The notes beneath the pieces are model-generated. The model was given only the letters and a program-made list of their open reading frames with translations, was not told where the DNA came from and searched no databases. From Sphaerolaimus hirsutus (lineage: Eukaryota; Nematoda; Chromadorea; Monhysterida; Sphaerolaimidae): a stretch of DNA of 64,000 nt. Every line of letters starts with the position of its first letter. Position 1 is the stretch's first letter. A program made the position numbers and the translations under genes. Positions 48,880 to 63,827 of the stretch are shown one piece after another. The stretch lies in assembly GCA_964036195.1 (NCBI GenBank), contig OZ038456.1, forward strand, positions 24,033,792-24,097,791, given 5' to 3'.

Positions 48880-51800
48880 TCACGAGCAATTGGTGCAGGT
48901 GGAGAAATGAGGTTTCTCATCCCAGTATTTCAGGAACGATGTCACCAGGGAGCAGTTTGGGTACGCGCACGCCCGCTGGACATCTGCGGTTTAGATGAAG
49001 ATGTCTTGAGGTTTGTCTTGCGGGGATGTAGGTATTATTATGATGCACCGTTCCCCTCCCCATGTGGAATAAAATGAAAATTGTCAAGTGCCCGAAACAA
49101 AATAATTTTTCTTATAAACACCTTCCCGGACAAGTTCACCACCCATTTTTTTATTTCACTTCGAATGCAATATCTCCGTCCATGGGGGTGTTATAAAGCT
49201 GAAACTTTGTATATATAAAGTTGTAAGACCCCTCTACTCCTCAACAATGGGGGAGGTGCGGCGACTCACTACAGGGTGGATCGCCCTATATGCAACAATT
49301 TTTTTGGCGTTTTTGGTGTCCCAAACAAGTTCACCACCCATTTGTTTGGCTACACTACGAGAGCCATATCTCCAGCTGTGATGGCAGTATAAAGCTGAAA
49401 TTTGGGTGATGTCTCGCCAACAACCCCCTTCATGATCCACCAGTGGGGCGGCTGCCAACGACCCACTAAAGCATGGGTCACTGCATATAAAGTTGACCAT
49501 TTTCTAAAAACAGCCCAAGTGTCCCTAAACAAGTTCATCACCCAACTGCATCTAAAAAATGTTACAACAACATACCTAATATAAGAATGAATCGGGTTGG
49601 AACACTATTTCAGCCAAAAAATTTTTTTTCAGTAGGGCACCCACCCTGCCCCATAAACAGCCGACTGAAAATTTCACTTTAAATAGATTTTTTGTATCAC
49701 ACTTAAAAAGTTGGTTTACAAAGTTCACTAGGGGAGGGTCTAAGGTTCAAAGTTATGTAAACAACATAACCTCTAAAATGCTTCCATAAGGAAATTTACT
49801 TGGGGTGAATTCTCTGATGTCAAAATGATGTCATTTCAGGAAGAAAATTTGACAAAATTTTCACTTTTTCATTCACCCCAAATAAATTTCCTTATGGAAG
49901 CATTTTAGAGGTTATGTTGTTTACATAACTTTGAACCTTAGACCCTCTCCTAGTGAACTTTGTAAACCAACTTTTTAAGTGTGATACAAAAACTTGGTTT
50001 AGAGTGAAATTTTCAATCTGCTGTAATTGGGACAGGGTGGGTGCCCTACTGAAAACATTTTAATGAGCAGAAGTAGGGTTCATATCTGATTCAATTTTAT
50101 ATCAGGTATGTTCTCACAACATTTTTTTATAATGCAGTTGGGTGGGAACTTGTTTGGGACACTTGGGTTGTTCTTAAAAAAATTATCAAATTTATATGCA
50201 GTGACCCATGCTTTAGTGGGTCATCGGCAGCCGCCCCACTGGTGTATTGTGAAGGGGGTTGTTGGCAAGACATCCCCCAAATTTCAGCTTTCTACCGCCC
50301 TCACAGCTGGAGATATAGCCTTCAAAGTGTAGCTAATCAAGTGGGTGGTGAACTTGCTTGGGACACCAAAAACGCCACAACAAATTTTTTGCATATAGGG
50401 CGACCCACCCTGTAGTGAGTCGCCGCACCTCCCCCCATTGTTGGGGAGTAAGGGGGTCTTACAACTTAATATATACAAAGTTTCAGCCTTATAACACCCC
50501 CATGGGCGGAGATATTGCATTCGAAGTGAAATAAAAAAATGGGTGGTGAACTTGTCCGGGAAGGTGTTTACATTTTTACACTTTTGCCACTTTTTATGGT
50601 GCGGCCTGGGGCCAGTTCCGCAAAATGAGAAGTGAGAAGTGAAATGGCAAAGGGGAAGTAAAAAAGAACAAGTTGTTTCTCTTCGCTTTTGCCATTTCAC
50701 TTGCCAATTCACTTGCCGTTTCACTTGGCCTTTGCCATTTCACTTCTCACTTCTCATTTTGCGGAACTGGCACTGGCACCTGATCGCCCCAAAATCATTG
50801 ATGGTGGCAAATTTGCGGCAAAAGACTCTACTTTGGGTTTTTTTCTCAAATATATCTTTGAATCTAGAATTTTTATCCGAATCTTAAATTTTTTTTGTTC
50901 TGCTTCTTGAATGTTCAGGCGGCTTCACGCTACGCCGCGCTCACACTGAACACACTTAACGTTCCAAAAATGTCTGGGAGATTTATATTTAAAAAATATT
51001 ATCAAATATAAAATTTTCCTTATTTAATTATATTTTCTCCAGTTTTTTTCCCAGAGAGATTTAATTATATTTTATTTGTGAGAAATCAATATAATTCAAT
51101 CTCTCATTTATATTTTCTCAGCGATTTTTCAGAGAGATTTAATTATATTTTACTTTTGAGAGATTTTCTGAGATTGTATTTAGGTAAGTAATTATATTTT
51201 TTGAAAATCACCCATTTTTTGGAACGCTAAACACACTTCACGACGCTTCACCACGCATCACAGCTGTTTCCGTACCACCAACTCACCCTCACTCGCACAC
51301 TGGCGCACGTGCTCGACCAGCAGCCGCATCCGGCCGCAAGGGGGCGCTTGTGCGCGCGCGGGGGCGGGGCTTGGCTCGGCTGAAGGGTGGGGGTGTTCTG
51401 TTGGGAATCAGGTGTGTAAAGGTCTATGGGTAACGAGGGTGGATGCAGGGATTGCGATAGATAGTTGTGACAGTTGGTAATTTTCTCAGTGACTTAAAAC
51501 CCTTTTCTAGTTGCTTATCGCTACAGTTATTGGCGCGCTGAGCTATAAGCGTCCCAGCAAACACATTTGATTGTTCTTGTTATATTTAGAAAACATTGAA
51601 AACATATTAAATTATTTTGTAATGTCAGTCATTTTTGTAACGGTGGTTACGTTTTTCTGTTGAAAAATGAAAAAAAAATATGTTCATAAATGTGAAAGTT
51701 ACCAGTAATAAAAATTAGCACTAAAATCCCCCAGGTGGAAATCCCAAGCCCTGTAAAGTGTAATGTAAAGTGTTAAATGTAAAGTCAAATGCAAAGTAAA

Positions 51801-59546: not shown

Positions 59547-59849
59547 CTTCTAGGCACTTGTCCACTTACGGAAATGGCTCCTGGAATGGGGAATCGCTTT
59601 TGAAATCAAGATAACTTGAGAAAATGGAACGGCTGATTTCATTGTCGATATCTGTCGGGTTTCGTTGGAGGCTCAATGCAGCTGAAAGTTCGAAAATAGT
59701 GATTTTACATTTATCAGGCATTATCAGTATTTTTTCGGCGATAATTTTTTAGAACAATGCAAAAAAAGACCTTTTATCTTACTTTATTTTTAAGTCTTGA
59801 ATTTTTTCTTTTTTTCTTTTAATCAGTTGCTGAAATTAAAGACTTGATG

Positions 59850-60139: not shown

Positions 60140-63100
60140 TTACACCAATCCCAAAAACAACCTTGCATAATCCATTCTTTCAAACTGCACTGGATAAGTG
60201 GGCGGGTCGTGGTAATGCAAAATCCATTTGTCGTAGTAACCCACCAGACATTTGTTCAGTTGGGGGTTCAATAACACTACCTGTGAGCGAAAATGGAAGT
60301 TGTATGTTAATTGTGGGGTTATTGTGACACTGTAAATTCACAGTGTTATTGGCAACATGCCAAATATTTTATTTACATTTTACATTTGAGCAGCAATTTG
60401 ATCTTAATATTTACAAAGAGTGATAAATTGTTTAGATGTTTTACAAAAGTTAAATGTTGCTTACTTTGGAATGCTGCCAACAAAACACATCTGTGTTTGT
60501 TACACTGGTCTTGGTTTAAAGTTTAAAGGTTTAAACAAAAAGTTAGAATTTAAAAAAACCAACCCATTTGACACACCAACTTTCACTGAGGCCGAACCAA
60601 GATGGCATCCAATATAACCCCATATGAATGACGTCATTTTGCGCCAATGTCAATATATAATGATCCTTTTTACCCCTCTCTAAGTCATCATGACTTTGTG
60701 ATGACTGTAGTTGAAAACTCTCTTGATTATGACCTGCCTCGTAATATATTTTTACATATGCAGATGCGTCTGTGCCGGCGCCATCTTGGTCACAGGTGTG
60801 GATGAATAGATCCCATCTGGTGCCTGGAATTTTTTATTTTTTTTGTGAAAGTGTGAATTTTTAAATTGTCAATTGGAGTAAGAATACTCTCAGTATACAC
60901 AAATATACATTGCATACTCCATGAGGATGTAAATATGTAAAAAAAGAAAGAAATTGTTGGGAAAAATTCTCAATCTTTGACATTTGACAAATTTGTCTGA
61001 CATTTTACATTAGGCTTTGAACTTTACAGGGAGCGGGACTGCCACCGGGAGCCAATAAACAGTCGTATTCCAATCTAATTTCGTCCCTAAACCCAAACTA
61101 AACCACACGTGCAACCACTCAGAATTAAACCCACCAACGCCCCGATTTTGGCCCGTTGCCAAAACACCACTGGCAATTCCATTCCGCACAGAATCGGCCC
61201 CATAAACGAGCACGAATAGGGCGGCCAGCCCTAAAAGTAGGGCTGATGCAGCGATGGCGCCACTGCCCGCCGCGCACAGAAATGACTGCCTACAGCGGGT
61301 AGATCTGGGGGTGGGGTACCTGGGGGGGGGGGTAATTGAGGCATCTAGTTCCGAATGTCGGTATCTCCATCATTTTAGGTTTTTCCAAAATTGCATTTGA
61401 AAATTCAAAGTTGGCCCGAGCGTGCAACTTTAAAGTGACAAGTCTTGCCCAAGACTTTTTGAAAAGCTTATGGAATTGTCTACATTTTCCATATTTTAAA
61501 CCCTGCGGCCGGCATATATAGCTAGAGTTATGATGATTTGATTGATAGCAGGTCAGCAGATTCAGTGGAGATACCCTGTTTCGAGTGATTTTTTTATGAA
61601 AAATCACTCGAAACAGGGTATCTCCACTGAGTCCATGGGATCAACAGCGCGGTTGTGCTGCCGTTCTGCTTGCCCATTGCCCCACTTGCGAGCAAATTTC
61701 TTACGCAGAGCAGTGGAGATACCCTGTTTCGGACAAAGACATTTTGGAGATACCCTGTTTCCGACAAAGATTTTTTTGGAGATACCCTGTTTCGGATGAT
61801 TTTTTTCAAAAACTGGTTTGGAATTCTATACCGTAATTCGGATGATTTTTTCTGTTTTGTATGGGAATTTGGACTGTTTGCGTCAAATCTATACCGTAAT
61901 TCGGATGATTTTTTCCGTTGGTGGAGATACCCTGTTTCGAGTGAAATTTTTGGTGGCTCTTTTTGGAGATACCCTGTTTCGAGTGAATTTTTTCAAATTT
62001 GAGGGTGGAGATACCCTGTTTCGGATGATTTTTTTTGTTTTTTCTAAAAATCGGCATATATATATCTCGGGAATGGTATAAGATATTGAAAAAATTCTTT
62101 TGCTATCATGAAGAAATAAGTGCACTTATCACAGATTCGCACTTAACTCATTTTTTTACACTTTGGTCTTTACCGACATTCGGAACTAGATGCCTCAATT
62201 GAATGTGAGAGGGGCGGGGCATGCTTAGATGACGTTTACGCTTTCTTTTGTTCACTGGATTTCTGCTAATCAACCCTAACCCCCAAATACACCCAGGGGG
62301 CAGTCCCAAGCCCTGTAAAGTGTAAAGTAAAGTGTCAAATGTAAAGTCAAATGCAAAGTCAAGTGTCAATTAAAACAAAAAAGAAAAGATTTTATTACTG
62401 AACTTTGCATGACAATTGACACTTTACTTTGCATTTGACTTTACATTTGACATTTAACTTTACACTTTACAGGGCTTGGGATTGGCACCAGGTGGCACTC
62501 CCTTACTATATAAACTGTCAAATGTCAAGGTGAGTGTCAATCAAAATAACAATCATTATTACAAAACATTTGAAATTTGACATTTTACAAATGTTTCTGA
62601 CATATTGCATGACATTTGACACTTAACATGACACTTTGCAGTCTCATATTCATCCCTCTCACATATCAACCATAACTAGATTATTTCAAGCAAAAAATTA
62701 ATACAAAATTACAAACAAAAAGAAACCTCCACAGACCTGCCCCCTTTCAACAACAAATTCATGTCAGCATTGGCTCCATTCCCAGCCTCATGCAACTCAA
62801 CATTTGGCTCTGTGCCAACTGGCAGCCAACAGCAATTAGGAGACACTGTTTCAGTTTCACTGCTACCGTAATCTGATGAACACTGGGCCTGGGGCTGGGG
62901 GCACTCCCAAACCCTGTAGAATGCCATGTAACGTGTCAAATGTCATGCTGTATCTCAATTTTTGTTTTGCCATTTCACATGACATTTTACACTTAAAATG
63001 TCATCTGACATTTCACGGGACATTTTACAGGGTCTGGGACTGGCACCTGGGGTACAGCAGAAGTAGTAGTGTTCACGTGTAGAATTTTGCCATTTTGGAC

Positions 63101-63827
63101 ACCATTCGTTTGGGGTGGTTGTGTGATTTCTAGCAAGCCGGTCTGGCATTTTGCGTTGTTTTGATTACTGAATTTTCGCAGCGCCAAGGGTTCCTGGGAG
63201 GAAATTTAATATCGTCTGTCATTTTGTTACTATTAGATTCAACAACCTTGTATGACATTTTATTGGAACTATTCCTAACAGTTTACAGGATCAGGGACTG
63301 CATCCAGGGACGAATTTCGCAAGTGGAATGGTCAAGAAAATATAGTGACAAGTAAAAATATTTCAGTAAGTTTAGCGAAAATCGGATTTTTTAAGTGCCA
63401 GGGATTTGTGACTCAAAAGGCTTGTCACATTCACTTAACTCAGCACTTATGACCTCACTTGCTACTCACCACATTCTTTGTAACTTTGGTTCCTGGGGGC
63501 AGTCCCACATTTTGTGGAGTTAGAAATTTCACTTAAAATTTTAAAAAAATTACTGAAATCTTGACATTTGGCAGGTAATTTGACAGCTTTGCATGACATT
63601 TGACACTTTACAGGGTGGGAGACTGCCGCCCGACAACAAAAAGAGTAGGGCAAATTAAACGGCGCACCTGGTGGCTGCCGCTGGCCGTGCTGTTGCACCG
63701 ACGTGCCATACGAGGGGCTGGTCGCATATTTCCACAAAATTAGAATTGATATTTGTCTGAGTTGAAATGATTGACATTTGATTGTGACTGGATGTTTTAG
63801 TATTGGGGTTATAATTGAGATTAGCAT
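60140..63827 (-). CDS. Unrecognised single-pass membrane protein gene
   Basis: Exons that join in frame: 63047-63193 (PLALRKFSNQNN to TTTSAVPQ), 62737-62894 (CSSDYGSSETETVSPNCCW to LLLKGG), 61046-61289 (one membrane helix, ASALLLGLAALFVLVYGA, then an Asn/Gly-rich extracellular or lumenal part ending VYWLP), 60140-60280 (VVLLNPQLNKCLVGYY to ARLFLGLV, stop). Upstream, a 23-base exon 63470-63492 (TKVTKNV) and 63668-63827 (YATSPSYGTSVQQHGQRQPP) fit in phase but are tentative. No family recognised. Several splice sites are formed by CWG-family transposon ends. Confidence 0.55.
61332..62202. mobile_element. TIR element with GGAGATACCCTGTTTC repeats
   Basis: AATTGAGGCATCTAGTTCCG at the left is inverted at CGGAACTAGATGCCTCAATT at the right. 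Between them are about eight copies of GGAGATACCCTGTTTCGRA spread over 61,568-62,030, some inverted, and two of TATACCGTAATTCGGATGAT. Confidence 0.7.
62297..62488. mobile_element. CWG-family MITE (GTAAAGTG subtype)
   Basis: GGGGCAGTCCCAAGCCCTG to CAGGGCTTGGGATTGGCAC, CAG at 62294-62296 and 62489-62491. A second, decayed copy starts at 62,492 on the same CAG. Confidence 0.82.
62895..63046 (-). other. Intron that is exactly one CWG-family transposon
   Basis: On the gene strand the exon ends CCCCAG, the intron runs GTGCCAGTCCCAGACCCTG to GGGAGTGCCCCCAG, and the next exon starts CCCCAGGCCCAG. The element proper is 62898-63046, flanked by a CAG duplication. Removing 152 bases restores one CAG and keeps phase 0. 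Confidence 0.75.
63496..63629. mobile_element. CWG-family MITE
   Basis: GGGGCAGTCCCACATTTTG to GGGTGGGAGACTGCCGC; CTG left, CCG right. On the - strand its end supplies the acceptor CCCCCAG of a possible 23-base exon. Confidence 0.65.

Follow-up and report, generated by a model that had tools for sequence, protein, structure and literature searches.

The intron at 63046-62895 on the minus strand of the window (the whole stretch of DNA analysed, 64,000 nucleotides, G000:C9:24033792-24097791, from a genome of 348 Mb in 762 contigs) is in all likelihood one copy of a MITE (a non-autonomous DNA transposon) working as an introner. In this animal-like genome, a MITE of ordinary appearance is very probably acting as an intron maker, and this particular intron is likely one of its products, as judged from its family and from homology. 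The observations consist of the anatomy of the element, the family around it, the target duplication, the exact fit within conserved proteins and the orientation bias.

On the coding strand, the intron reads GTGCCAGTCCC...GGGAGTGCCCCCAG, 152 nt with the duplicated CAG included, and both of its flanks are in phase 0. Exon 3 closes with the codons GTA CCC CAG, ending at 63047, and exon 4 opens with CCC CAG GCC CAG TGT from 62894. The sequence-only reading had set the exon end CCCCAG directly against the first base of the element and had closed the intron with the other terminus plus CAG, and the coordinates agree with it; that the removal of 152 bases restores a single CAG and joins phase 0 to phase 0 can be read directly from the sequence of this intron. 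If it is kept, the frame is shifted (152 = 2 mod 3) and a TAA is then met. A mechanical scan recovered both the inverted ends and the target-site duplication (TSD), with 21 of 26 terminal bases paired, and the RNA strand folds into a long hairpin (-60.9 kcal/mol vs -32.0 +/- 3.9 for 200 shuffles, z = -7.5). The earlier reading had also described inverted ends starting with GT beside the CAG duplication; the duplication and the inverted ends stand, whereas only one terminus begins with GT and the other begins with GG (GGGGCACTCCC). Since one terminus is GT and the other GG, the element is asymmetric, so its orientation matters.

In the proposed mechanism, the element, with GTGCCA at one end and GGGGCA at the other, would insert at CWG and duplicate those three bases. 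If it enters a CAG of the coding strand, GT end leading, the result would be CAG/GTGCCA...GCCCC CAG/ (slashes mark splice sites or joints throughout), where the 5' splice site comes from the element and the 3' splice site from the duplicated target CAG, and splicing would give back the original coding sequence unchanged. The insertion itself would have been made by cut-and-paste transposition at CWG, presumably by a transposase of the PHIS/NuwaI type, while the spliceosome would cut exactly at the first base of the element and at the borrowed CAG.

Table 1. Features of the host locus, junction-spanning Pfam matches after exact removal of sampled copies, and candidate GT-TG introns.
Feature	Position	Strand	Basis or match
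Predicted intron made of the transposon: element of 149 nt (GTGCCAGTCCC...GGGAGTGCCCC) followed by the duplicated CAG	62895..63046	-	sequence, CWG scan, fold
Upstream CAG of the target duplication (final exon 3 codon)	63047..63049	-	
Downstream CAG copy of the target duplication, proposed 3' splice site	62895..62897	-	
Exon 1	63668..63756	-	hand model
Intron 1, bounded by CAG/GTGCGCC and GGGACTGCCCC/CAG; possible rearranged family copy inside	63493..63667	-	hand model
Exon 2, 23 nt; acceptor GGGACTGCCCCCAG doubles as right terminus of a family copy	63470..63492	-	hand model
Exon 3 (EPLALRKFSNQ...NTTTSAVPQ), phase 0 to 0	63047..63193	-	hand model
Exon 4 (PQAQCSSDYG...LLLKGG), phase 0 to 2	62737..62894	-	hand model
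Family copy inside intron 4, ends GGGGCAGTCCC / GTGCCAATCCC, CWG duplication	62294..62491	.	
Exon 5, hydrophobic, transmembrane-like stretch (AASALLLGLAALFVLVYG)	61093..61319	-	hand model
Exon 6, PLAT/LH2 domain	60560..60823	-	PF01477, E 8.4e-11, hand-joined peptide of exons 6-8
Exon 7 (frame unsettled at the exon 6-7 joint)	60162..60280	-	hand model
Exon 8	59570..59681	-	hand model
L100, RNA_pol (mitochondrial RNA polymerase)			junction-spanning Pfam, 3.2e-25
L068, Y_phosphatase (tyrosine phosphatase)			junction-spanning Pfam, 5e-21
L094, Carn_acyltransf (carnitine acyltransferase)			junction-spanning Pfam, 5.3e-15
L028, SelR			junction-spanning Pfam, 1.9e-11
L104, peroxidase			junction-spanning Pfam, 1.4e-8
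L089, Zip			junction-spanning Pfam, 3e-8 (33.7 bits, slightly below the Pfam cut-off of 35.1)
L032, GATase_7 (glutamine amidotransferase)			junction-spanning Pfam, 6.7e-8
Candidate GT-TG introns, GT end first, in L118, L120, L124, L125	joint near base 130		
Candidate GT-TG intron, GT end first, in L053	1236	reverse	
Candidate GT-TG intron, GT end first, in L059	2076	reverse	
Candidate GT-TG intron, GT end first, in L002	1498		

The element belongs to an abundant family. Besides the intron element, a scan of the window for CWG-flanked inverted ends recovered seven further copies with CWG duplications (8 of its 12 rows, the other four being two cross-pairs and two unrelated repeats), with both CAG and CTG among the duplicated targets. 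Both duplications also occur genome-wide, where the search pattern itself required them. The family ends read, with variation, GTGCCANTCCCAGACCCTGTAAA on one side and GGGGCANTCCCAGACCCTGTAAA on the other. A strict genome search for CAG/GTGCCANTCCCA...GGGANTGNCNN/CAG returned 60 matches in the class of 90-120 inner bases and 277 in that of 121-150, and the CAG/GTGCCA..CAG pattern read backwards gave 0 matches in both genome searches. The sample analysed below comprises 101 copies: intron 63046-62895, all 60 of the 90-120 class, and, from the 121-150 class, the first 20 listed on C1 and the first 20 on C2. It holds at least five pairs resembling duplicates of each other; the three that were measured (L019/L020, L081/L082, L096/L099) are 94.8 to 100% identical, with the element in both members. 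The idea that the family is young was dropped, the copies being mostly 72-88% identical to intron 63046-62895. A one-ended family copy (GTGGCAGTCCCGCTCCCTGTAAAG) lies at 61046-61020 (-), in intron 5, just after TGGCTCCCG, with no partner end seen by eye.

The exact fit is seen in conserved genes. After exact removal of the element and one CAG, a Pfam domain spans the junction in 7 of the 101 sampled copies, in seven different families (Table 1). Each Pfam query was one peptide, and the 30 class A peptides comprised 20 chosen by eye and 10 chosen by codon score; the yield was 6/10 in the first by-eye set, 0/10 in the second (one LRR match, to one side of the joint) and 1/10 for the codon-score choices from untrained copies, against 0/10 for the ten best frames in the opposite orientation. 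A junction-spanning match was therefore absent in 23 of the 30 class A peptides, as well as in one extra copy met in passing. Alignments against PDB chains are gapless at the joint for carnitine octanoyltransferase (GNFTLST/SFLGY), mitochondrial RNA polymerase (LPVQQ/DGSCNG) and catalase-peroxidase (GGCDGA/RVRFKP), and the phosphatase shows small alignment gaps at or shortly before it; the sampled copies were chosen and cut at the element ends, and the gapless homology sits at that cut. Several further readings were left out of the count: L019 and L029, which look like C-type lectins by eye (no Pfam match); sirtuin-6 for L093 and isoprenylcysteine methyltransferase for L125, likewise by eye (no Pfam match for either, and PDB matches that end ahead of the joint or begin at it); and the TMEM165-like L092, in the opposite orientation, whose Pfam match begins past the joint. 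The catalase-peroxidase-like gene with a family copy, L104, has 1itk as its best PDB match (E 6e-18); such a gene is unusual for an animal.

These joints also bear on where the splice sites lie. GTGCCA looks like a weak donor, and the sequence leaves the 3' splice end of intron 63046-62895 unfixed: in-frame AGs occur 9 nt before its proposed end (GGGAG/TGCCCCCAG) as well as 6 and 12 nt after it. It is rather unlikely that the intron, while derived from the element, uses other sites and adds or loses a few codons, namely the donor CCT/GTAAAA, 18 nt downstream of GTGCCA (six more in-frame codons), the acceptor GGGAG, 9 nt before the end (three more codons), or the downstream CAGs. Every one of these options preserves the frame, and GTAAAA is closer than GTGCCA to the usual donor consensus; however, an added insert would lie within such motifs as LPVQQ/DGSCNG in the mitochondrial RNA polymerase and LST/S in the carnitine acyltransferase, both gapless under exact removal.

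The coding signal around the copies follows the GT..CAG strand and not the opposite one. Codon scores were trained on 22 by-eye class A copies, intron 63046-62895 included, and computed leave-one-out; the final scoring omitted the test copy from the background too, which shifts the >0.2 count by one copy. Among the 101 copies, 25 exceed 0.15 on the GT..CAG strand vs 1 on the opposite strand, with a binomial p of 8e-7 that is too small because at least five sample pairs look like duplicates. The counts are 33 vs 7 above 0.1 and 18 vs 0 above 0.2, and the 79 untrained copies give 17 vs 2 above 0.1 for the competent and the opposite strand. A milder contrast is found for open frames, where at least 40 codons are open on both sides in 45 copies on the GT..CAG strand vs 28 on the opposite one; random pairings of left and right flanks (200 of them) give a mean of 29 and a maximum of 38, against the same 45 of 101 joined copies. 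This bias weighs against the view that the exonic copies are never removed and damage the genes they landed in, since such insertions would strike both orientations equally. The three measured duplicate gene pairs, which keep the element in both members, speak against it as well, and with removal predicted from sequence this view is highly improbable. It is at the level of the family that the introner design proposed in the sequence-only reading finds most of its support, through the 7 of 101 junction-spanning domains, the gapless PDB joints and the strand bias.

The host gene of the intron offers weaker evidence, and this single locus would not carry the introner claim alone, because its leave-one-out codon score is negative (-0.10); its support would come from analogy with the family and from the open frame of exons 1-6. 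In the hand model, these exons share one frame that runs from a hydrophilic part through a hydrophobic helix into the PLAT domain, the donor of exon 5 (GTTTAG) having been picked so that the frame stays open. The openness of exons 1-5 has a p of 0.0014 under a dinucleotide null that ignores the hand choice of splice sites, and that of exons 3 and 4 alone a probability of 0.043 under a dinucleotide null. Two introns of the model, before exon 2 and before exon 4, end in an element terminus, and intron 1 possibly contains a second family copy with a rearranged left end, perhaps an older introner. The sequence-only reading placed the flanking exons in a consistent membrane-protein gene; the model shows the open frame, the transmembrane-like stretch and the PLAT domain. 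No homologue of the 413-aa model was found at E <= 0.01 among 8000 candidates scored, the phage collection gave no match, the peptide of exons 3 and 4 matched no Pfam family, and a protein search of the own genome detected no paralogue or empty site, its six matches all being the gene's own exons. It is conceivable, though improbable, that the family makes introns elsewhere and not at 63193-62737, where a chance open frame or an element within a longer native intron would be seen instead. The codon score, the missing homologue and Pfam match and the opening probability of exons 3 and 4 fit that alternative, whereas the single frame of exons 1-6 through the PLAT exon (with hand-chosen splice sites) and the ends of exons 3 and 4, which match the element to the base, favour an introner at this site. 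Clustered short repeats of the form GAAACAGGGTATCTCC occur in both orientations at 61500-62050 (-).

A control with the element reversed between CAGs gave 31 strict matches, the first 12 of which were read; on the other strand, they correspond to CTG/GTGCCA...GCCCC/CTG. Unexpectedly, such CTG-target copies, with the GT end first, also interrupt conserved genes. In L124, residues 1-84 match the tyrosine kinase family PK_Tyr_Ser-Thr (4.1e-24) on both sides of a joint at residue 43, where the alignment to an EGFR chain is also gapless. For L120, Pfam gives a trypsin match over residues 31-68 (3.8e-12), which includes the joint at 43-44, but no PDB chain came out at E <= 1e-8. L118 and L125, among the 12 read, and L053, L059 and L002, CTG copies met in passing, look coding from their sequence; the G-patch match of L118 starts downstream of the joint and was not counted. 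Within the same length class and with equally strict ends, 277 CAG matches stand against 143 CTG matches (p 6e-11), an excess that either poorer tolerance of CTG or an insertion preference could explain. On the reverse strand of L053, from about 1236 to 1640, what looks like a single gene is interrupted twice, by a CTG copy and a CAG copy separated by about 70 coding bases.

Most of the CTG copies shown carry an AG shortly upstream of the terminal TG (TTTACAG or TTTATAG). Ordinary AGs that might replace it were sought with GTGCCA and GTAAAA, which are in the same phase, taken as donors. Over the final 120 nt, L118, L124 and L059 have no AG that keeps an open frame; in L053, the sole frame-keeping AG lies downstream and would delete 13 codons; in L125 and L002, GGGAG would add three codons; and L120 has several AGs, each adding 10 or more codons. 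Copies that have no frame-keeping upstream AG would be GT-TG introns.

CTG copies without a terminal AG in conserved coding sequence, together with the strong hairpin, also speak for removal outside the GT-AG rule, with the hairpin excised either in the manner of a nonconventional intron or at the DNA level. Nonconventional introns occur in euglenids. Such removal should ignore orientation, yet the coding signal is GT-first in the CAG copies. The orientation contrast in the 12 CTG copies is slight and only suggestive, with 4 GT-first vs 0 GG-first above 0.15 (p 0.125) and 4 vs 2 above 0.1. The best ten frames in the opposite orientation gave no Pfam match, although peptides selected in this way from the competent strand yielded just one in ten. 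Removal independent of GT-AG and of orientation, as in the euglenid type, is thus at odds with the 25 vs 1 of 101 CAG copies and weakly so with the CTG copies, and excision of the hairpin or at the DNA level is disfavoured because the coding signal lacks orientation symmetry and is very unlikely.

As for the origin of the element, the family is probably a CWG-duplicating MITE that resembles PHIS/NuwaI transposons by its target and one terminus, with the transposase unlinked. The NuwaI group of the PHIS (PIF/Harbinger-like) superfamily is described, in the portions of the article available, as making CWG duplications, having terminal inverted repeats (TIRs) that usually start with GGG and occurring only in animal genomes (PMC4482050); the word intron does not appear in the main text of that article. 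Like NuwaI, the family duplicates CWG and has one terminus (GGGG) starting with GGG. Unlike the NuwaI elements described, it is short and non-autonomous, and its other end starts with GTG, one base from GGG, making the donor site. Since NuwaI ends are usually GGG in that description, the GG terminus here would be the ordinary one and GTG would lie one substitution away. A NuwaI or PHIS transposon would be mobilised by a DDE transposase with a Myb/SANT partner. At least 163 matches to PF13359 (DDE_Tnp_4) were scored in the genome, many of near-equal score, which suggests a recently amplified PHIS element; none is linked to the family ends. Many of them, for example C7:5776843-5777475 and C15:4528842-4529474, cover an identical span of 633 bases with about four in-frame TGAs, as would be expected of a common insert or of an intron some 190 bases long.

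Introners derived from DNA transposons, which have TIRs and TSDs and bring one splice site along while the target supplies the second, have been described by Gozashti et al. 2022, in two animal groups only as far as the consulted parts of the paper go (PMC9860276). Like those introners, the present family would leave coding length unchanged and borrow a splice site, hits many genes and has TIRs and TSDs: many similar sequences lie in different genes as predicted introns (seven copies, seven families), and the predicted intron ends coincide with element ends or the TSD, with gapless homology at the cut. Unlike them, as they are presented there, it has a 3-bp CWG target and apparently uses CTG besides CAG. 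Among titles and opening lines of abstracts on introners, in a collection with few subscription papers, none described an introner that targets CWG or belongs to PHIS. For tunicate genomes, too, introner transposons and their weak splice sites are discussed, and 95% of the introns there are said to escape GT/AG in the accessible text (PMC13326754); in the hand model of the present gene, GT and AG borders were chosen.

The origin of new introns in animals is an old question, still open, and introners are known from very few animal groups, according to the sections consulted (PMC9860276). An abundant family with clear termini, a target duplication and conserved hosts makes intron gain, splice-site birth and orientation rules testable site by site, and the CAG/CTG contrast amounts to a natural test of the final bases of a 3' splice site, with similar elements borrowing either AG or TG from the target. 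It is possible, though somewhat short of probable, that one MITE family of the PHIS/NuwaI type in an animal host makes GT-AG introns at CAG and GT-TG introns at CTG, that the element gives the donor only, that TG alone suffices as a 3' end for the spliceosome of this species and that one G-to-T substitution, at the second base of one of the TIRs, turned an ordinary transposon into the intron maker. The CTG class would be new if confirmed, because TG 3' splice sites in human U2 introns are said, in the part of the article available, to be always alternative to a nearby AG (limit 28 nt) and never to serve alone (PMC2374985). The CTG copies resemble those human sites in a predicted TG end that mostly has an AG shortly before it; they differ in that L118, L124 and L059 lack a frame-keeping AG over the final 120 nt of the element.

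The gene content of the window looks animal, with trypsin and PLAT domains and a myosin tail exon that matches the muscle-type chain 8u95 (E 7e-5), an insect chain, and fragments resembling receptor-type tyrosine phosphatases and tyrosine kinases are found elsewhere in the genome. A long inverted repeat at 49115-50570, with arms of 257, 215 and 139 nt that are 87-96% complementary, represents an unrelated, larger palindromic element.
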